Shown: positions 8,759 to 17,846 of the stretch, one piece after another
Numbering within the stretch: the stretch's first letter is position 1
Layout: each line of letters opens with the position of its first letter
Assembly: GCA_017621815.1 (NCBI GenBank)
Contig: JAGASK010000044.1
Coordinates: forward strand, 1-60,011
Reading direction: 5' to 3'
Source of the DNA: Lachnospiraceae bacterium
GTDB lineage: Bacteria; Bacillota; Clostridia; Lachnospirales; Lachnospiraceae
DNA: 60,011 nt
Position numbers and translations under genes: made by a program
The notes under the pieces: generated by a model
What the model saw: the letters and a program-made list of their open reading frames with translations, nothing else
What the model was told of the DNA's origin: nothing
Database searches by the model: none

Positions 8759-9259
8759 TCATAAATCCTCCTCATCATCTTCCTCTTCAAAATCCTGATT
8801 TGCCAAAGCAGCTTCCCGTTTTCTGGCTATTGTTCCCACTATCAGGAATCCTGCGAAGGTAATTATATACATAAGTACCATATAATATACAATAAAAAGT
8901 ATGATTCCTTTTAGGGAATTCCCGTTAGCCCTCAGCCCAAAAAGAATTCCAAAAGGCACTCCTGCCAGCACTGAAGCAATTAAACTGTACAACAGATAAG
9001 CTTTTATGCCGGGAACTTTTCTGGTATGAAAACTCCACACTCCTTTTCTGACACAGCCAATCAGCACTACCACGCTGGTTGACATAAAAACAATCCATTC
9101 TCCTGCTGCCCGTTTAACTCCGTCTTCCATGAACAGCCCCTGAATTATCAAGGCCGCAAACAGCATCCAGTACATAAACCAGAACCCGAAATGCTCTACT
9201 TTAAGTAAATCCATTTCCTGTCTTTCATCCACTCTTTTCTTAAACCATTTCACTTTCAT
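8759..9259 (-). CDS. Four-helix membrane protein of an XRE-CPBP operon
   Basis: The 166 residues have a basic, charged N-terminus with a DERQ motif, four hydrophobic segments (about 27-45, 57-70, 85-107, 120-145) and a very acidic C-terminal tail (E/D run). The layout resembles DUF6773-like proteins found next to XRE regulators in Clostridia (from memory). It lies 12 bp after the XRE gene and 1 bp before the protease gene. It may be a partner or substrate of the protease; this is inference from position. Confidence 0.7.
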   Translation of the reverse strand: MKVKWFKKRVDERQEMDLLKVEHFGFWFMYWMLFAALIIQGLFMEDGVKRAAGEWIVFMSTSVVVLIGCVRKGVWSFHTRKVPGIKAYLLYSLIASVLAGVPFGILFGLRANGNSLKGIILFIVYYMVLMYIITFAGFLIVGTIARKREAALANQDFEEEDDEEDL

Positions 9260-9271
9260 TCACAGCCTCCT

Positions 9272-9472
9272 TTATTCCTCTGCTTCCCAGAATAAATCAT
9301 CCAAAGTTTTGCCAAGCGCTCTGCATATGGAAATGCAAAGCTGCAAAGAAGGGTTAAATTTCCCTGCCTCAATCATGCTGATAGTCTGTCTGGTAGCCCC
9401 TACCAGCTCCGCCAGCTGTTCCTGTGACAAATCTTTTTCTATCCTTGCTATTTTCATTTTCTTATTTTTCAA
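9272..9472 (-). CDS. Small XRE-family transcriptional regulator
   Basis: About 66 aa, a single helix-turn-helix: KIARIEKDLSQEQLAE, then VGATRQTISMIEAGK, then PSLQLCISICRAL. Such minimal regulators usually repress their own operon. The open frame extends to 9538, but the predicted -10 box lies at 9530-9535, so translation must begin downstream. TTG at 9472 (protein starting M-KNKKMKIARIE) is the best choice, behind AAGGGAACGG. A 22-bp piece of this gene recurs at 10481-10502, see the scar features. Confidence 0.85.
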   Translation of the reverse strand: MKNKKMKIARIEKDLSQEQLAELVGATRQTISMIEAGKFNPSLQLCISICRALGKTLDDLFWEAEE

Positions 9473-9529
9473 ACCATCACCGTTCCCTTTTCTCTTTCCT
9501 TCATTATATGTTCTTCCTTCCACAGTGAT

Positions 9530-9558
9530 AATATACAATATATTTTAATAAATGTCAA
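9530..9558 (-). promoter_or_regulatory. Promoter of the XRE / membrane protein / CPBP operon
   Basis: Minus strand TTGACA (9558-9553), 17-bp spacer, TATATT (9535-9530) in very AT-rich sequence. Near-consensus sigma-A type. Confidence 0.8.
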
Positions 9559-9588
9559 TTATATTTTACATTTATTAAAATATATTTT

Positions 9589-9618
9589 TCATACTACTAT
9601 TCTTTCAAGTCTTGCGCC
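9589..9618 (-). pseudogene. Relic of the 3' end of a vanT/alr-like racemase gene
   Basis: Read on the minus strand this encodes G-A-R-L-E-R-I-V-V-stop, identical to the last nine residues and stop codon of the vanT at 10515. The two DNA copies differ at five of 30 positions, all synonymous third-codon positions, which argues for a true coding relic. Homology stops abruptly upstream of the Gly codon. Confidence 0.6.
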
Positions 9619-9639
9619 CTTGACAAACAACACATACAC

Positions 9640-9680
9640 AAAAAAGGCAGATGCAAACCCTTTACAGGTTCACAACTGCC
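9640..9680 (-). terminator. Rho-independent terminator after the 174-aa gene
   Basis: On the minus strand, GGCAG pairs with CTGCC and an inner AACC/GGTT step extends the stem; six T follow. It lies about 100 bp past the stop at 9777. Confidence 0.7.
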
Positions 9681-9776
9681 CTTGTGCCGTTATTATAAAA
9701 TTTTTACTCTTGACAACACTGCCGTATGCCTCTAAAATATGACTTACAAAGAGAAATGAGTTTTTCGACCGTACAG

Positions 9777-10301
9777 CTATTGCTCAAGCGGCTTGCTCGT
9801 TTCTTTTTTTGTTCTTAAAATATCATACAGATACAATTTCCCGTCTTTTGCATGACGCACCAGTATTCTTGCCTTAAAGACATTGTACCTTACCAGTTCG
9901 CCCGCATCATCATAAACAGGAATCGCAAAACGTGTATTATATCTATACCATCCGAATTTTGCATCTGTGTTATGCTTCTGTGCATAATTCTCCGCAAATG
10001 TTTTATTCGTAGCAATTTCAATCATTTCCTTAATAATTCCTGAAGAATTTGCCTTTGCATACATATTTGCACCCCTTAGTTCCTTTGTATCTTTGGAATG
10101 CGCAAACTCGTCCGGGAAATCTGCACCAATGTACACTACATCTGATGTTTCCGTAATTTCTGCACACTGACCGATATACTCTTTCAAACAATTTTCAACA
10201 ATGTTCCAGTCCACGCTCCTTCTTCCCTTGAAACGCAGGTCATTGATGACCACAATGCTTTCACCGTCAGCGTCTTTTATTATATCAACTTTCTTATCCA
10301 T
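9777..10301 (-). CDS. Orphan protein resembling a domain of large mobile-element proteins
   Basis: Function unknown; 174 aa, no signal peptide or membrane helices. The sequence (KGRRSVDW, VVYIGADFPDEF, AENYAQKHN, FGWYRYNTRFAIPVYD, VLVRH-like, LYLYDI, KKET) resembles, from memory, the C-terminal domain of large phage and conjugative-element polyvalent proteins, here as a free-standing gene. AAGGAG lies 9 nt before the ATG. It sits between two scar regions (9589-9618 and 10380-10514), which supports arrival with mobile DNA. The family call is unverified. Confidence 0.55.
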   Translation of the reverse strand: MDKKVDIIKDADGESIVVINDLRFKGRRSVDWNIVENCLKEYIGQCAEITETSDVVYIGADFPDEFAHSKDTKELRGANMYAKANSSGIIKEMIEIATNKTFAENYAQKHNTDAKFGWYRYNTRFAIPVYDDAGELVRYNVFKARILVRHAKDGKLYLYDILRTKKETSKPLEQ

Positions 10302-10379
10302 TGCAGCTGCTCCTTATCTAATCCAATTTATCAAAAAGTCCAACAGCTACATTGTATCATGCCAGCCTATATAATTCTA

Positions 10380-10480
10380 TTCCTTCCGCCGCTACGAAAT
10401 TATTTTATGCTCCAGCCACCTTTTACTGTAAAACCGCCAGGTAAAAATAACTCCTCTGATTCCCCAATCGGTGAACATTC
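10380..10480 (-). pseudogene. Truncated copy of the 3' end of the MATE gene
   Basis: About 101 bp aligning without gaps to 16437-16537, the last ~88 bp of the MATE gene, its stop and the following bases, with roughly 8 mismatches. Same orientation as the intact gene. It stops abruptly at the GAACATTC block, where XRE-like sequence begins. With the intact copy it forms a pair of direct repeats bracketing the van cluster. Confidence 0.85.
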
Positions 10481-10514
10481 AAAGTTTTGCCAAGAGCTCT
10501 GCTATTTTCATTTT
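10481..10514 (-). pseudogene. Fragment of an XRE regulator gene with internal deletion
   Basis: 10481-10502 matches 9303-9324 of the XRE gene with one mismatch in 22 (a synonymous change in the R-A-L-G-K-T-L frame). It then continues as 9449-9460 would, as if about 124 bp were removed between two GC dinucleotides. It abuts the vanT stop codon directly. The second half is AT-rich and could match by chance. Confidence 0.5.
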
Positions 10515-12641
10515 TCACACAACAATTCTTTCAAGTCTCGCACCCAAACGGCTTAAGATTTCATTCGTTATTGTTCCTGCCTGCTTTGCTATGTCGCAGA
10601 CAGAAATTTCCGCTTCTCCTGATTTCCCAATCAGAACTGCCTCATCTCCCGCTTTTACATCAGAAATCTCGCTTACATCCACTATAGTCTGGTCCATACA
10701 GATACGCCCGATAACAAAGGCTTTGCAGCCGTTTATTAAAACTGTCCCGATACCGCCTGACAGACTGCGGGGATATCCATCCCCATATCCAATGGTGACA
10801 ACGGCTATTTTCATATTATGTCCTGCAGTAAACCCAAGTCCATAACCTGCCGACTCCCCTGCATACAGATTTTTTACTGCAGCTATTCTTGCTTTTAGGG
10901 ATAATACCGGTTTTAACTCCTTCCATTCCTCCGTATCCTCTTCCGTGCTCAAAACGCCATAAAGGGCAATGCCTGCCCGGGCGTAATTCTCCGCAAGCTC
11001 AGGATAATTTAAAATACTGTAACTTGACTGCAGGTGAAGCTTCGGACATGAATATCCTCTTTTCTGCAGTTCATGAACAACCTTATAAAATTCCTCCGCC
11101 TGCAGATTTGTATATGCCTGCTCTTTTCTTCCGAAACTGTCAGCAGCGCAAAGATGGGTAAAAAGCCCGTCTATTTTCAGATTTTCCATATGATAAAATT
11201 TACAGATGAAATCAATATTTTCGCTTCTCTCACCCAGCCTGTGCATTCCGGTATCGATTCCGATATGCACATGCAGCCGTCTTCCGTACTCATTCAGCTG
11301 CACGCCATAAGCATAATCAATTACGGTCTGAGTTAAACGATAACGGTATAACAGAAAAAACTCTTCCGGATGAGTATATCCCAAAACCAGAATTTCACCT
11401 TTCACGCCCTTTTTGCGCAGCTTCACTCCTTCCAAAGCGCAGGCCACACAAAAGGCATCCACTCCTATCCGGGTCAGTTCCTTTGCAATCAAAACAGCTC
11501 CATGTCCATAAGCATCTGCTTTTACGGCAGGCATCAGCCTGCACCGCTTTGGCAGCTTCGAGCGCAGAAATGCAGCATTGTTCCTGAGGGCAGCCCGGTC
11601 AATTTCTATCCATGCCCTGCCTGTGGGATTTATCTTTCTCTTTCCTGATATGAAACAGGAAATTGCTGATGCCCATAAGCCTGACAGGAATGTTACCGTA
11701 AAATAATGCACCAGACTGTTATCAACAAAAAGCGCTGTCATATGAATCACCCTGGCTCCTCCCCGCACCGCAACGATTACAGCCGGATGGAGAATATACA
11801 TCCACATTGCAATATTCCGCAAAATACGGGAAGGCTTTTTATCCCATGAAAGCAGCAGCCTGTATAAGAATATCATGACAGGTATCAATGCCAAATACAT
11901 ACTGTCATGTCTCTGCAGTTTAAAGTAATGAAGTGTAAATGCCTCTGCTGTCATAGCCAGGAAAGAAACTGTCAATCCAAAAATCTGCCCCGGCTTTTTG
12001 CCAACATGATTTTTCCTGCCGGTCAGGGCGCCTGAAATAAGAAAAACAGGTGCAAAAAAGAAACCGTTTCTGGTATAGGAAAACAGCTGAAACATAAATT
12101 CATACATTACAGACAAAATAGGCACATCCTTTATCAGTCCATAATAACTGTCACCGAAAAGACCCACTGCATAGAGCGCTGCTGCTATTGCCATCATGCC
12201 TTTCCTTCCCATACATCTGCTCATCAGATATACAAACAGGACTCCCGTAATACATGCCGGAAAATACCACAGATGATAAAAGGTTCCATCGAACACTATC
12301 ATTCGTATAGCTGATATGATATTTAAGCTTTTATAATGCCCTGCATAAATTCCCACAGGAACATAAATCATCACCGCTAATCCGTAAACCAGCGCTGTTT
12401 TTCTGATATATTGAAACAGCCTTCCGGACGCCATATCATTGTCATACAAATAATCTGTCATTACAAACTGCCCTGTTACCATAAAAAAGAAAGGCACGGC
12501 TATCCGTGCCAAAATCCTGGTCAGGAAAAAATCTGCATTGCCGCTGAAGGATGCAAGAGGCGATGTATGAATGGCAATAACCAAAATAGCGGCAATCATT
12601 CTGAACCTGTCGAGACCTCCGTATTTTTTTCCTTCACTCAT
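10515..12641 (-). CDS. vanT: VanT: membrane-bound serine racemase
   Basis: Makes D-serine from L-serine for D-Ala-D-Ser synthesis. The 708 residues are two modules. Residues 10-335 form an acyltransferase-3-like membrane domain with about ten helices, thought to serve in serine uptake. Residues 340-708 form a PLP-dependent alanine-racemase-type domain: AVKADAYGHG with PLP Lys374, RAGIALYG, and ESAGYGLGF with the second catalytic Tyr600. This architecture and length match VanT of vanC and vanG clusters. Start: the open frame extends to 12743, but GGAGGGAAAAAG fits the ATG at 12641, which overlaps the vanXY stop by 8 bp. Serine rather than alanine specificity is inferred from context. Confidence 0.93.
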   Translation of the reverse strand: MSEGKKYGGLDRFRMIAAILVIAIHTSPLASFSGNADFFLTRILARIAVPFFFMVTGQFVMTDYLYDNDMASGRLFQYIRKTALVYGLAVMIYVPVGIYAGHYKSLNIISAIRMIVFDGTFYHLWYFPACITGVLFVYLMSRCMGRKGMMAIAAALYAVGLFGDSYYGLIKDVPILSVMYEFMFQLFSYTRNGFFFAPVFLISGALTGRKNHVGKKPGQIFGLTVSFLAMTAEAFTLHYFKLQRHDSMYLALIPVMIFLYRLLLSWDKKPSRILRNIAMWMYILHPAVIVAVRGGARVIHMTALFVDNSLVHYFTVTFLSGLWASAISCFISGKRKINPTGRAWIEIDRAALRNNAAFLRSKLPKRCRLMPAVKADAYGHGAVLIAKELTRIGVDAFCVACALEGVKLRKKGVKGEILVLGYTHPEEFFLLYRYRLTQTVIDYAYGVQLNEYGRRLHVHIGIDTGMHRLGERSENIDFICKFYHMENLKIDGLFTHLCAADSFGRKEQAYTNLQAEEFYKVVHELQKRGYSCPKLHLQSSYSILNYPELAENYARAGIALYGVLSTEEDTEEWKELKPVLSLKARIAAVKNLYAGESAGYGLGFTAGHNMKIAVVTIGYGDGYPRSLSGGIGTVLINGCKAFVIGRICMDQTIVDVSEISDVKAGDEAVLIGKSGEAEISVCDIAKQAGTITNEILSRLGARLERIVV

Positions 12642-13407
12642 CTTTTTCCCTCCACTGTGTAATAATAAAACCGTCTGTATTATTGCCTGAAATACAATAA
12701 GGCCGCTTTTCATCAATTCTGACTTCCGTACAGCCTTTTTCATTTGCTTTCAAATATGATACTTCTATTCCCCTGTTCCCGCTCACACTGCAATATGTCT
12801 TTATTCCATAAGGAAACTTCTTTATAAATAAGATATACTCTTCCAGCGTCAGTTCTTTTTCCGCCATAATACCGGCATGAGGAATTCCCACATAACGAAA
12901 ATGCCAGGGCTCATGCCCGATGCCTGTAACATCCTCTTTTCCGGAAGGATATCTTTCAATAAATCCATACTCAGAGGCTTTCTTACGGAAAACCTGACAA
13001 ATTCCGGTATAAGGGAACTCCGGACAGATAAAATCAATGGTTTCCTGCTTTAATCCCAAATCAATGGCAAGCCCCGTCTGATGTTCACTGTGCCCCGGCA
13101 GGGCAACAAACTTTTCCGTAAATTCCTTTCCGTTTTCTTTCGTAGAATCATCCCATATATCCTCCTGTTCCCTGTGAGAACGAAAGCCGCTGACAGCCGC
13201 TATACTGTCAAATCCATGTATTTCCTCCATAAGATTAAAGAGCAAAACTGCCGCTCTGCGCTGCAGTAAAACAGCAGGTTCTCCGCTCCACACCGGTATC
13301 AGGGAATTTTCTTCCGGCTCCTGATATCCGTATCTGCGGTTTACCAGAATCAGATTCCCGGTATGCATATCCTGTTCATTTAAAAATATCGTTTTCACAA
13401 GCCCCAT
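12634..13407 (-). CDS. vanXY: VanXY: D,D-dipeptidase/D,D-carboxypeptidase
   Basis: Zinc enzyme that removes D-Ala-D-Ala dipeptide and the terminal D-Ala of UDP-muramyl pentapeptide. The 257 residues hold the M15B zinc motifs SEHQTGLAIDL (107-117; His109 and Asp116) and HEPWHFRYVG (Glu166, His169). No signal peptide or transmembrane helix, as expected of the cytosolic VanXY rather than membrane VanY. The purine-rich GGAAAAGGAAAGG precedes the ATG at 13407; a GTG at 13398 (V4) behind AGGATGGGG is an alternative start. Twenty bp after vanG; overlaps vanT. Confidence 0.92.
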   Translation of the reverse strand: MGLVKTIFLNEQDMHTGNLILVNRRYGYQEPEENSLIPVWSGEPAVLLQRRAAVLLFNLMEEIHGFDSIAAVSGFRSHREQEDIWDDSTKENGKEFTEKFVALPGHSEHQTGLAIDLGLKQETIDFICPEFPYTGICQVFRKKASEYGFIERYPSGKEDVTGIGHEPWHFRYVGIPHAGIMAEKELTLEEYILFIKKFPYGIKTYCSVSGNRGIEVSYLKANEKGCTEVRIDEKRPYCISGNNTDGFIITQWREKDE

Positions 13408-13427
13408 CCTTTCCTTTTCCGTCAGCC

Positions 13428-14480
13428 TTATTGTCTCAACGCCAATTCAATAATTTTTTCCAGGACATTCTCAAAAGAATATCCGGCTGTCCTCATCATT
13501 CCGGGATAACGGCTGTGCTCCGTAAAGCCGGGAATTGTATTTACCTCATTAAATACAATTTCTCCCGCAGGTGTCAGAAACATGTCCACTCTGGCAAATC
13601 CCCGGCATCCTAATGCCTTATAGATTCTTTTTGCTGTTTCTTTTATTTCTTCTGCTGTTTCCCTGCTGATTCTTGCAGGTACATGAATAGCAGAGGATTT
13701 CAGAGTATATTTTTCCGTGAAGTCAAAAAATCCTCCTGAAAGCTCTATTTCATCCACTTCACCTGTAATCAGGGTTTCATTTCCCAGCACTGCGCAGCCT
13801 GCCTCAAAGCCTTCTATATTTTCCTCCACAATTACCTGATTATCATATTGGAATGCAATATTTACGGCCTCTTCCAGTTCTTCCTCCAAAAGCACCCTGC
13901 TGACCCCATATGAAGAGCCGGCTTTAACAGGTTTTACATAAAGGGGATAACCGATTTTCCCGGCAAAATCTTTCACTTCCTTCTTCTTTCCGTTCTTTTC
14001 AATCACCATAGCCATCGGAACCCGCACGCCTGCCGCAGCTGCCATTTTATGCGCCCTGTCCTTATCCATACAAAGAGCGGACGAAAGAGTACCGCATCCC
14101 ACAAGGGGTATTCCCGCCAATTCAACCAGCCCCTGCACTGTACCATCTTCACCGTTTCTTCCATGCAGCACCGGGAAAACAGCATCCACCTTAAACGCTT
14201 CAACTCCCGTTTCTTTTAACAGAAGAAGCTCATGACGCTTTCTGTCCGGCGAAAGCGCCGCAGGAACACAGTCCTTTTCATTCAGCCAGGTGTCATTTTT
14301 AATCTTTTCAATATCCCCGTTAAAATAAAACCAGTCACCATCCATTGAAATACCTGTCATCAGAGGAAAATATCTTTTCCTGTCCAGCGCTTTTATTACC
14401 GAATAAGCAGATTTAAGTGAAACGCCGTACTCAGAGGAACATCCTCCGAAAATAATTGCAATGTTATATTTCTTTTCCAT
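13428..14480 (-). CDS. vanG: VanG-type D-alanine--D-serine ligase
   Basis: ATP-grasp ligase making the D-Ala-D-Ser terminus of peptidoglycan precursors, which lowers vancomycin affinity. The 350 residues include IIFGGCSSEY-x-VSL (9-22), LHGRNGEDG (105-113), VKPVKAGSSYGV (182-193), the omega-loop EKYTL (256-260) and NEVNTIPGFTEHSRYP (311-326). In the omega loop, EKY is the D-Ala:D-Ser signature, whereas D-Ala:D-Lac ligases carry a different motif. First gene of the resistance operon; the ATG follows AAAGGACAG. Activity should depend on VanR, because a VanR-type operator and a hairpin lie upstream. Confidence 0.93.
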   Translation of the reverse strand: MEKKYNIAIIFGGCSSEYGVSLKSAYSVIKALDRKRYFPLMTGISMDGDWFYFNGDIEKIKNDTWLNEKDCVPAALSPDRKRHELLLLKETGVEAFKVDAVFPVLHGRNGEDGTVQGLVELAGIPLVGCGTLSSALCMDKDRAHKMAAAAGVRVPMAMVIEKNGKKKEVKDFAGKIGYPLYVKPVKAGSSYGVSRVLLEEELEEAVNIAFQYDNQVIVEENIEGFEAGCAVLGNETLITGEVDEIELSGGFFDFTEKYTLKSSAIHVPARISRETAEEIKETAKRIYKALGCRGFARVDMFLTPAGEIVFNEVNTIPGFTEHSRYPGMMRTAGYSFENVLEKIIELALRQ

Positions 14481-14511
14481 TTTTCTGTCCTTTCCCGGAA
14501 ATGTATTTCAT

Positions 14512-14560
14512 AAAAAAACACCCCGTCCCGATACTGAGATAGTATCAAAACGAAGTGTTT
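14512..14560 (-). terminator. Strong hairpin terminator/attenuator in the vanG leader
   Basis: On the minus strand a 20-bp uninterrupted stem (with G-U pairs; outer arm AAACAC/GTGTTT, inner arm GATACT/AGTATC, loop ATCTC) is followed by a run of T at 14515-14512. It ends 31 bp before the vanG ATG. It can end the vanRS transcript, and lies downstream of the predicted VanR-controlled promoter. Confidence 0.85.
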
Positions 14561-14587
14561 CTTTCTTTCGTTTTTTGTTTTTAAAAA

Positions 14588-14616
14588 CTTATAATTTCAT
14601 CATGAATTTCTTACGA
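14588..14616 (-). promoter_or_regulatory. VanR-type operator and vanG promoter
   Basis: TCGTAAGAAATT (14616-14605) matches the published VanR box consensus TCGTANGAAATT exactly and overlaps the vanS stop codon. A second half-match ending in GAAATT (14604-14593) is placed 12 bp on, about one helical turn. TATAAG (14593-14588) is a candidate -10 with no good -35, typical of an activator-dependent promoter. Confidence 0.75.
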
Positions 14617-15732
14617 TTTTATGACATTTACAGGAAGCTGCAGGGTAAAAATAATGCTTTCATTTTCACTTTCCGCCTTAATACTGCCGCCGTGCAGTTC
14701 TGCAATTTCCCTGGCAATGGCAAGCCCCAGTCCTGCACCTCCGGTTGCGGAACTGCGTGAAGAATCAAGGCGGAAAAACTGTTCAAAAATATGCTCCAGC
14801 TTTTCAGGCGGAATCGTTTTTCCACAATTACGAATGCAGATTTGAACATTATCCCCAAATTTCTTCATGGTAAGAGCTATTTCTGTCTGCTCATAGCTGT
14901 AATTTACCGCATTCCGAATCAGATTATCAAAAACCCTTTCCAATTTATCCGCATCACAGACAATCCAGACCTCCGGCGCAATATCTGTCTGAAAAGACAG
15001 GCCTTTCTCCGCCAGAACGGGCTGAAACTCAAAAACAATCTGCTCCAGCATCCGGCTTAAATTTATTCTTTCCGTTTCTAAAATAAGAGTGGTAAGATTA
15101 AACCGCGTTATATCAAAAAACTCATTAATCAGCTCCTCAAGCCGTTCTGCTTTCTCAAGCGCAATTCCCGTATACCTCGCCCGCATTTCAGCAGAAATCT
15201 GAGGTTCATCATGAAGCAGCGTCAAATACCCGATAACGCTTGTCAGCGGCGTTTTTAAATCATGGGCAAGATAAACGATTAAATCGTTCTTCCTCTGCTC
15301 AGCTTCCCTGGCAATCATGGCATTTCGCAAGGCCTGTTCCCTTACCAGATTCAACTCATCCTCCACGGTCTCCATGGCGTCCGGCAGCTCTACAGGCGTT
15401 TCCGAGGGATTGGCAAGCTGTTCTGCCGCATTAATTACCTCATTCAGATATTTGATGGGTTTTTCAAAATAATACCAGGTAACTGCGCTCCAGCCTATTA
15501 CGAGCACAATACTTCCGCAAATTTCAATATTATACTCTATGCCCTTAAGAACACGATATAGCAATTCATTTCCCTGCCATACAAACTGTCTGCAGACTCT
15601 CACTACAATCACTGCAAACAATGCCAGCATAACGAAAAAGACAAGCAGCGAAATGATATACTGCATCATAAGCCGTCCGGTTATTGTGCTTTTGTATTTG
15701 TTTCTTTTTCTATTCTTCCTGTTATTATTCAA
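14611..15732 (-). CDS. vanS: VanS sensor histidine kinase
   Basis: Membrane sensor that phosphorylates VanR when the cell wall is challenged. The 373 residues have two transmembrane segments (about 24-46 and 71-88) with only a short loop outside, a HAMP-like linker, the H-box AHDLKTPLTSVIGY with His157, the N-box NLIRNAVNYS, and the G-boxes, GGAGLGLAIAREI being the last. The small external loop is typical of VanS types sensing in or near the membrane. The start is TTG at 15732, overlapping the vanR stop (TTGA), behind GGAGTGGGG. Its own stop codon is part of the vanG operator. Confidence 0.9.
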   Translation of the reverse strand: MNNNRKNRKRNKYKSTITGRLMMQYIISLLVFFVMLALFAVIVVRVCRQFVWQGNELLYRVLKGIEYNIEICGSIVLVIGWSAVTWYYFEKPIKYLNEVINAAEQLANPSETPVELPDAMETVEDELNLVREQALRNAMIAREAEQRKNDLIVYLAHDLKTPLTSVIGYLTLLHDEPQISAEMRARYTGIALEKAERLEELINEFFDITRFNLTTLILETERINLSRMLEQIVFEFQPVLAEKGLSFQTDIAPEVWIVCDADKLERVFDNLIRNAVNYSYEQTEIALTMKKFGDNVQICIRNCGKTIPPEKLEHIFEQFFRLDSSRSSATGGAGLGLAIAREIAELHGGSIKAESENESIIFTLQLPVNVIKS

Positions 15733-16420
15733 TGGTATACCCCACTCCCCAAACCGTTTTTATATACCTGGGCCTGCGCGCAGGCTCCTGCATTTTTTCA
15801 CGAAGCCTCGCTATATGCGCCATCACCGTATTGTTATTATCCAGATATTTTTCACCCCAGACAGCTTCAAAAAGTTCTTCCGAAGAAACTACAATTCCTT
15901 TTCGCTCACATAAATACCACAATATGTCAAATTCCATAGGCGTCAGTGTCAATTCCTTTTCGTTCAGCCTGCACTTATGGCTGCTTCTGGAAATCTGCAG
16001 CCCCCGGATATCTATTTCCTCCGGCTCTTTCATCGCCTGCATGGAAGTGTTATATCTTGTATATCTGCGCAGCTGGGTCTTTACCCGGGCTGTCAGTTCA
16101 AGGGGATTAAAGGGCTTGGTAATATAATCATCTGCCCCAAGTGTCAGACCTGTAATTTTATCCATATCTTCCACCCTGGCCGTCAGCATGATAATGGGGA
16201 AAAGATACTTTTCCCTTATTTTCTGGCAAAGGGTAAAGCCGTCCATATCCGGCAGCATAACATCCAAAATGGCAAGACTTACGGTTTCTTTCTCTACACA
16301 GTTTAAAGCTTCTTCCGCATTATAAAACTTAAATACCTGATAACCTTCATTTTTCAGGTACACCTCCACCAGATCGGCTATTGCGCATTCATCATCAACG
16401 ATTAATATCTTTTCACTCAC
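15725..16420 (-). CDS. vanR: VanR response regulator (OmpR family)
   Basis: DNA-binding activator of the resistance genes. The 231 residues comprise a receiver domain with DD at 9-10, phospho-acceptor Asp53 in ILDVMLPDMDG and Lys102 in TKPFNPLEL, and a winged helix (about 130-228). The start is GTG at 16420, supported by GGAGGAAAAAGT. Only 29 bp separate it from the MATE stop codon, with no terminator, so read-through from the degV-ABC-MATE operon is possible; any dedicated promoter would lie inside the MATE gene. Confidence 0.92.
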   Translation of the reverse strand: MSEKILIVDDECAIADLVEVYLKNEGYQVFKFYNAEEALNCVEKETVSLAILDVMLPDMDGFTLCQKIREKYLFPIIMLTARVEDMDKITGLTLGADDYITKPFNPLELTARVKTQLRRYTRYNTSMQAMKEPEEIDIRGLQISRSSHKCRLNEKELTLTPMEFDILWYLCERKGIVVSSEELFEAVWGEKYLDNNNTVMAHIARLREKMQEPARRPRYIKTVWGVGYTIE

Positions 16421-16436
16421 ACTTTTTCCTCCGTCT

Positions 16437-16537
16437 TTTCCTTTCGCCGTTACGAGATCACTTTATGCTCCAGCCACCTTTTACTGTAAAACCGCCAGGT
16501 AAAAATAGCCCCTCTGATTCCCCAATCGGTAAACATT
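16437..16537 (-). repeat. Direct repeat (intact copy) at the MATE gene end
   Basis: Matches 10380-10480 at about 92% by eye. The two copies lie in the same orientation 6,057 bp apart and enclose all five van genes. Confidence 0.85.
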
Positions 16538-17838
16538 CCTATCCACACCGCCATAGGTCCGAAACCAAAGGCTTTTACTAAAAAGATACAGAGACTTACC
16601 CTGCAAAGCCACATGGTTGCAGTAGATACCAGCATGGAAAACCTTACATCTCCTGCTGCCCTCATTCCATATGCAGGTATAAAGGAAAGCACCCAGAACA
16701 AAGGTTTAAAAATCGTAATCCATCCCACCATTCTGATACAAAGCGCCGCACTTTCCGGCTCCATGGCGCCGATTACAGTAACCGGCCTTACCAGGGCATA
16801 GACAAGCAGGCAGTTCAGAATCATACAGATTTCACTCAGCAAAGTAAGTTTTTTCACATAATATATTGCTTCTTCTTTTTCCCCCGCACCGATGCATTGT
16901 CCAACTACCGTCATCAGCCCGATTCCGATTCCAACAGCTGCCACACCGTTTAAATTTTCCATAATATTTGTCATAGCCTGAGCTGCAATCGCCACCGTTC
17001 CCATAGTGGAAACCGTAGACTGAATTGCCAGCTTGCCAAACTGAAACATACTGTTTTCCACACCGGAAGGCACCCCAATAGACAATACTTTAAAAATCAG
17101 CTGCTTATCCGGGCGAATCTTTAAATATTGGTTCACACAAATCATTTGTCCGGGCTTCCTTAAATACAGAAGCACCACCACTGCACAAAAGATTCTGGAA
17201 ATCAGAGTGGCAATTGCAACCCCTGCCACACCCAGGTGGAAAACCCAGATAAAAACCGCATTCCCGCCTATATTAATGAAATTGGAAATAACGGATATCA
17301 CCATAGGGCGTCTGGAATTTCCCTGAGCCCTGTAAATGGCTGCACCGCCATTATATAAAGCAATAAAGGGAAAAGACAATGCGGTGTAAAAAAAGTAGGT
17401 TACTGCCGCTTCCATAACATCCGTTTCCACCTTACCAAACACAAGCTTAAGAATTCCCTTGTTTCCGATTAAACAGATTATGGCAATTATTGTGGATATT
17501 GTAAAAATAACAAGCAGCACCTGCCTTGCTGAGTTGTTTGCCTGCTCTTCATTCTTTTTGCCTATATACTGGGAGCAGAGGATACATCCCCCTGCCGCCA
17601 ATGCTGCAAAAGCCTGAATAAACAATATATTAATGGAATCCACAAGGGAAACAGCCGACATGGCAGCAGGTCCTACATTGCTTACCATAATAGTATCCAC
17701 TGTTCCCATCAGAGAATTTAAAATCTGTTCTATCATAAGCGGAATCAGCAATGCCACGATTTCGGCATTGCTGAATATATGCTTATCCTTTAATTGTTTT
17801 TTATCCTGTCTGATGCGCTTTACTTTCTGCATTATCAT
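16450..17838 (-). CDS. MATE-family efflux transporter
   Basis: Cation-coupled multidrug exporter; 462 aa with about 12 transmembrane segments in two related halves (MIEQILNSLMGTVDTIMVSNVG near 35-56 and SIGVPSGVENSMFQFGKLA near 250-268). It starts 8 bp after the ABC subunit stop, behind GCGGGG, so it is the last gene of the degV-ABC-ABC operon. The substrate cannot be read from sequence. Its last ~88 bp recur as a fragment at 10380-10480, beyond the van cluster. Confidence 0.92.
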   Translation of the reverse strand: MIMQKVKRIRQDKKQLKDKHIFSNAEIVALLIPLMIEQILNSLMGTVDTIMVSNVGPAAMSAVSLVDSINILFIQAFAALAAGGCILCSQYIGKKNEEQANNSARQVLLVIFTISTIIAIICLIGNKGILKLVFGKVETDVMEAAVTYFFYTALSFPFIALYNGGAAIYRAQGNSRRPMVISVISNFINIGGNAVFIWVFHLGVAGVAIATLISRIFCAVVVLLYLRKPGQMICVNQYLKIRPDKQLIFKVLSIGVPSGVENSMFQFGKLAIQSTVSTMGTVAIAAQAMTNIMENLNGVAAVGIGIGLMTVVGQCIGAGEKEEAIYYVKKLTLLSEICMILNCLLVYALVRPVTVIGAMEPESAALCIRMVGWITIFKPLFWVLSFIPAYGMRAAGDVRFSMLVSTATMWLCRVSLCIFLVKAFGFGPMAVWIGMFTDWGIRGAIFTWRFYSKRWLEHKVIS

Positions 17839-17846
17839 AAACCCCG

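Follow-up and report, generated by a model that had tools for sequence, protein, structure and literature searches.

The stretch of DNA analysed here, hereafter the window, comprises 60,011 nucleotides (nt) from a Lachnospiraceae bacterium (assembly GCA_017621815.1, contig JAGASK010000044.1) and carries a predicted glycopeptide-resistance cluster of vanG type, vanRSGXYT, that lies between two directly repeated copies of the 3' end of a MATE efflux gene. The question raised by this locus is how a resistance cluster came to be enclosed by the end of a neighbouring gene. The arrangement was probably produced by the head-to-tail joining of a single MATE-vanRSGXYT-HTH (helix-turn-helix) locus in two versions that had diverged from each other, here called alleles A and B, and the repeat looks like the scar of a recombination event and not like the termini of a mobile element. 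Allele A would comprise the live MATE gene, the van cluster and, after them, a much reduced HTH remnant. Allele B would comprise the MATE tail, a unit encoding a 174-amino-acid (aa) protein in the position of the vanR-vanT genes, the closing codons of vanT, and an intact promoter and HTH gene.

Anatomy of the repeated locus

All genes and gene remnants described here lie on the reverse strand of the window. The live MATE gene (16450..17838; Pfam MatE, E = 2e-44) contributes its 3' end, together with 16 nt of the MATE-vanR spacer, to the live copy of the repeat (16434..16538). The orphan copy (10376..10480) holds the final 89 nt of the gene, including the stop codon, and up to 16 nt of the same spacer, with reading frame and stop retained. 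In a gapless self-alignment of the window the two copies are identical at 96 of 105 positions (9 mismatches, E = 6e-31), the longest identical run between the two MATE tails is 46 nt, and all five genes, vanT, vanXY, vanG, vanS and vanR, lie between them. An earlier note on this DNA, made from the sequence alone, had described direct repeats of the MATE tail on either side of the van genes, a description that the self-alignment bears out, and its estimate of about 8 mismatches in 10380-10480 agrees with the exact count of 8; its spacing of 6,057 bp is corrected to a measured offset of 6058.

Read in the direction of the genes, the locus runs MATE, vanR-S-G-XY-T, a remnant of an HTH gene, the MATE tail copy, the 174-aa unit, a remnant of the vanT tail, a palindrome with a promoter, and an intact HTH gene. 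The second copy of the locus is present as scraps only, all in the same orientation and order as the live units: the MATE tail (105 nt, 91% identity), the HTH remnant, and the vanT tail (9584..9619; 36 nt, 86% identity), the latter two of which had been overlooked in the earlier note. When degraded van genes were sought in 9485-10515, the vanT end and the MATE end alone were recognised and the remaining rows were chance-like.

The HTH remnant (10476..10510) consists of the end of the gene fused to its start, with the middle and the promoter palindrome deleted. Positions 10476-10545 form a shortened copy of 9298-9619, in which 10476-10500 resembles the end of the HTH gene (9298-9322), 10500-10510 resembles its start (9446-9456), and 10510-10545 resembles 9584-9619. 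For 10481-10545 the chained alignment reaches a score of 79.0, whereas 3000 dinucleotide shuffles gave at most 40.8 and 2894 other places in the window at most 32.8. As read from the printed sequence, the remnant carries two internal deletions at short shared words (TGC and a T-rich word), the second of which takes out the palindrome beside the HTH promoter. In the intact copy this palindrome (9537..9586, 25-nt arms, 92%) overlaps a promoter-like TTGACA/TATATT and is probably the autoregulatory operator-promoter of the HTH gene, given that similar sequences lie upstream of HTH in relatives. The intact HTH_3 regulator gene itself (9275..9484; Pfam HTH_3, E = 8e-17), which has orthologues at the same locus, forms the right flank. 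AAAAT directly follows both vanT ends, so that both probably derive from one common van-HTH junction. The HTH remnant and the MATE tail copy meet at 10476..10480, where they overlap in CATTC, which reads CATCC in the live HTH gene.

That vanRSGXYT stood between MATE and HTH before the repeat was formed is shown by the two remnants, of vanT (9584-9619) and of HTH (10476-10510). It had been proposed earlier that the cluster was gained by recombination at the 3' end of MATE, and recombination at this site is still the simplest way to make or remove the arrangement, but the vanT and HTH remnants indicate that the repeat does not mark the first gain.

In place of a second van operon, the interval from the orphan MATE tail to the vanT remnant is occupied by a dispersed unit (9640..10381, ends approximate) with one 174-aa gene (open reading frame (ORF) 9777-10301). 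The genus was represented by 37 genomes, one per species and including that of the window, and homologous stretches of this unit recur elsewhere: G031, G010 and G009 carry it at 82-89% identity, and G004 and G019 carry parts of it. Whole or partial relatives of the 174-aa protein occupy 38 places in 19 of the 37 genomes, the window genome counted. The protein has no match in Pfam at E 0.01, in NCBIfam at 0.001 or in PADLOC at 1, and it has two PHROGs matches of unknown function (E 0.06 and 0.18). Its structure model (pLDDT (predicted local distance difference test) 77.7) has no PDB match with E <= 0.001, and the working label 'BECR' was dropped for this reason. One relative of the protein sits behind an N-terminal stretch that reads as HTH-like (L112, 7523-8275).

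Divergence of the copies and the locus in relatives

The MATE tails differ at codon positions 1/2/3 in the proportion 1/1/5 and the vanT tails in the proportion 0/0/5, the remnant at 9584-9619 encoding GARLERIVV* like the end of live VanT, with all five differences synonymous. Together, 10 of the 12 coding differences in these two scraps fall at third positions (P = 5e-4 against an expectation of 1/3, and 8e-3 against 0.45, a rough value chosen by the authors for one live and one dead copy), as do 11 of 13 when the HTH scrap is added. This bias suggests that both copies diverged while functional. Third-position divergence between A and B is approximately 26% (10 of 39 codons), compared with 42-60% between the window genome and same-genus genomes for ABC601, ABC592 and DegV, and would thus lie above what is expected within a species and below that between the species compared.

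At an alanine/valine codon, as read from the sequences, the orphan MATE tail matches three outgroups (G027, G024 and G018) and the live gene does not. The orphan tail had previously been called a slightly decayed copy, a description that holds in so far as it is the more changed of the two (at four codons) and fails in that its frame and stop are kept, five of its seven coding differences are at third positions, and it agrees with outgroups at one codon. Judged by these codons, it is not simply a decayed copy of the present-day gene.

Across the genus, the locus is laid out as DegV-ABC592-ABC601-variable part-HTH-DUF6773. ABC601 and HTH are found together in 12 of 18 locus stretches (G027, G033, G003, G030, G029, G004, G017, G022, G014, G019, G034 and G006), among which an orthologue of MATE lies between the two genes in G027 only and van in none; in G024 and G018, MATE follows ABC601 directly and is succeeded by other sequence. 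The G027 stretch (L079) reads ABC601-MATE-HTH without van, its sole VanT-like match being 37% identical, so that a van-free allele with a single uninterrupted MATE end, which the earlier note had suggested seeking among relatives, is present in the same genus. G006 (L095) pairs with G027 as its sister in the ABC601 tree (100/99) and retains, between ABC601 and HTH, just the 5' portion of MATE joined to sequence beyond the MATE stop, a scar which indicates that MATE was lost there by deletion and that this end of the operon is deletion-prone. The gap between ABC601 and HTH also carries extra ORFs that differ from one genome of the genus to another, of 305, 417 and 321 aa (L083, L084 and L092), and from its content looks like a variable spot.

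A van-positive relative that lacks MATE is G008, in which vanR starts 14 nt past the ABC601 stop and is followed by vanS, vanG, vanXY, vanT, and other genes, with no MATE and no HTH found on the 20 kb examined. The ABC601 tree makes G008 and the window genome sisters (92/90), whereas this part of the ABC592 tree is unresolved. The van genes of G008 (L102, 4722-10975) may be read from the operon of the ABC genes, and its VanT match contains one TGA and one TAG. A van-positive layout without any MATE fragment, conserved across distant genera, had been named earlier as evidence that would speak against gain at the MATE end; G008 answers to this in part, its cluster standing at this operon end with no MATE fragment, but in a genome of the window's own genus.

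Beyond the genus, VanR was detected at E 1e-108 in 33 of 397 family genomes and MATE at E 1e-160 in 45 of 397, the window genome counted in both cases. With flanks of up to 1.5 kb, ABC601 or MATE stood beside vanR in none of 29 loci from other genomes (29 of the 33 places had a locus) and ABC601 stood near MATE in 1 of 29 other loci examined, so that no conserved MATE-van or ABC-van layout emerged in these family loci, and ABC601-MATE is not a family-wide pair. Wider flanks were compared for 60 van loci, of which 56 were distinct and 4 present twice, and some of which were truncated where their contigs end. They included 50 from a list of 80 loci; the 30 left out (L223-L252) were weaker matches, except L225 (60%), whose contig entered as L104. 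Among these 60 loci, ABC601 lay beside van in G008 only (L102 and L203), and no MATE was present at 40% identity or above.

Probable origin of the locus

If two alleles were joined, an ancestor would have gained vanRSGXYT between MATE and HTH, after which lineages A and B would have split and diverged with both versions functional. In B, the 174-aa unit would then have replaced nearly the whole van operon. DNA of lineage A would subsequently have entered B, with homologous recombination on the ABC/MATE side and with the HTH end joining the resident MATE by approximately 5 bp of microhomology, and the second repeat would be the resident MATE tail, left on the downstream side. A single crossover within the MATE end by a circle that carried MATE tail-van-HTH would give an identical product. 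RecA-dependent recombination between the repeats could in principle remove the cluster and restore allele B. The make-up of the locus, its homologies, and the relatives that lack van or MATE are observed directly, whereas the order of events, the transfer between lineages and the mechanism are inferred. The MATE and ABC genes are resident genes in relatives, and a homologous crossover would have to lie somewhere on their side, at a point that a single strain does not fix. The fragment at 10376-10480 is a resident 3'-end remnant downstream of what would be the incoming segment. The border at 10476-10480 shows microhomology (CATTC/CATCC), an overlap that fits a tandem duplication equally well.

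Several observations weigh against the joining of two alleles. The scraps are short (39 coding codons), the third-position tests are post hoc and small, and the bias may be inflated because BLAST favours conserved ends. The live MATE gene agrees with at least one outgroup at four codons (TTT, GTG, ATC and TAA, as read from the sequences) where the orphan tail does not, and the orphan tail appears to be the more changed copy (four codons against one), as a decaying copy would be too. The 36 genus and 396 family genomes included neither a second strain nor any genome that carried one of the two alleles on its own. At E 0.001 the joint is absent from the other 36 genus genomes and from the 396 other family genomes (397 sampled), 9 of which match in part only, in DNA searches that miss distant versions of the joint; likewise, neither the MATE tail nor HTH had a DNA match in the 60 van loci (56 distinct). 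With 52 contigs and 91.6% completeness, the genome resembles a metagenome-assembled genome, and an assembly chimera at the 5-bp overlap is unlikely. An old tandem duplication of which both copies were long kept would yield the same sequence and is possible.

Such a duplication would have taken place in one genome, from the MATE tail through van to the HTH end, by way of the CATTC/CATCC microhomology, and both copies would have been functional for a long time before the 174-aa unit displaced van in the second and the greater part of HTH disappeared from the first. The joint between the HTH end and the MATE tail is the expected product of a microhomology-mediated event, two copies of one unit account for every scrap, and the orphan MATE tail being the more changed copy fits as well. 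The locus also resembles tandem duplication scars at microhomology in its head-to-tail joint, its few shared bases, and its two copies of one unit. However, long tandem repeats usually collapse or homogenise, whereas here the copies are 9-14% apart, mostly at third positions, suggesting separate functional histories, and a second copy that was quickly silenced should differ at all codon positions. Tandem duplication within one genome is considered unlikely, although it is the alternative to be taken most seriously.

It is improbable that the repeat marks the original acquisition of van through homologous or tandem recombination at the 3' end of MATE, as the earlier note had it. The direct repeats flank the cluster exactly, and the MATE-HTH allele of G027 has no van and only one MATE end, as would be expected, but the vanT and HTH remnants place van between MATE and HTH at an earlier time, and the G008 cluster sits at the same operon end with neither MATE nor a fragment of it.

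Van clusters are often mobile and a dispersed single-gene unit adjoins this one, which would accord with a mobile element (a composite transposon, an integrative and conjugative element, or an island) whose other parts were lost or lie outside the stretch studied. The absence of visible transposases, integrases or inverted ends had already been remarked, and is upheld between 9.2 and 17.9 kb, to which the screen was confined: no transposase or integrase was matched there (ORFs of at least 90 aa, family searches), and none of 19 inverted-repeat pairs of 7-20 kb pairs both borders. Not one of 72,556 plasmid records contains 80% of 9201-17200 at a single site, the best listed covering 15%, and the best of 50,697 phage records covers 11% of the same interval. 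With no plasmid or phage record containing the cluster, and with the same chromosomal operon context found in G008, a mobile-element origin was rejected as very improbable. Least probable of all is an artefact of assembly or binning that joined two strains' versions of the locus, which would suit a genome of metagenomic appearance and halves that are diverged alleles, but identical runs between the two MATE tails are no longer than 46 bases and the overlap at the HTH-MATE joint is approximately 5, too few for usual k-mers, and the HTH remnant has internal deletions of its own.

The van operon and its comparison with known systems

The cluster has the order vanR-S-G-XY-T of vanG-type D-Ala-D-Ser operons, and its ligase, regulator, kinase and racemase catalytic part pass curated NCBIfam cut-offs: vanG (13428..14480) with 561 bits against 495 for NF000091, vanR (15725..16420) with 402.8 against 350 for NF033117, vanS (14611..15732) with 408.6 against 400 for NF033091, and the catalytic part of the membrane serine racemase vanT (10515..12743) with 550.5 against 460 for NF033131. 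In contrast to other such operons, vanXY (12634..13407) falls below the cut-offs of its best model, NF000149 (vanXY_G; 260.8 against 500), and of NF000380 (216.7 against 250), as does VanT with the full-length model NF033132 (620.6 against 900), and the cluster is accordingly classed as vanG-type by its ligase and gene order only. Other vanG operons include vanY, vanW and vanU, whereas this run has no separate vanY or vanW and its gaps leave little space for vanU. A further difference is its placement after an ABC-ABC-MATE gene run, with 8 nt from the ABC601 stop to the MATE start and 29 nt from the MATE stop to the vanR start; given these gaps, vanR and vanS may be co-transcribed with the ABC-ABC-MATE genes (15725-17846).

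The type of mechanism considered here is already known. For effector-immunity clusters of the Vibrio cholerae type VI secretion system (T6SS), Kirchberger et al. 2017 (PMC5361080) put forward a model of homology-facilitated illegitimate recombination in which the 3' ends of former genes persist downstream; the mechanism is proposed there and not directly demonstrated. That account of T6SS module displacement shares with the present locus an anchor of homology on one side, an illegitimate joint on the other, and a displaced resident 3' end downstream; in contrast to that account, the incoming module here would be a regulated drug-resistance operon, both alleles would stem from one van locus, and the resident would have lost van. 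Effects of sequence divergence on transformation in Bacillus subtilis are treated in PMC6382021. No published account of an arrangement like this one appears in the titles and opening lines of abstracts of the literature on vanG in Lachnospiraceae or on vanG tandem duplication, and no paper came up on vanG in Parablautia.

More tentatively, and with the balance of judgement leaning against it, the locus may record that a chromosomal vanG cluster was lost and later regained with no mobile element taking part. A dispersed single-gene unit would have taken the place of van in the resident allele, and the operon would have returned from a sister lineage, in a segment that has MATE-end repeats on either side today. 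The cluster would then be a transposase-free unit able to leave and re-enter through ordinary recombination at the end of an efflux gene. If the joining of two alleles is correct, strain collections would be predicted to contain the empty allele MATE-174-aa unit-vanT tail-HTH. Plain recombination of chromosomes would then be the means by which a glycopeptide-resistance operon of gut commensals passes from one related lineage to another, with legible pieces of the previous allele staying behind, a route that searches for transposases alone would overlook.

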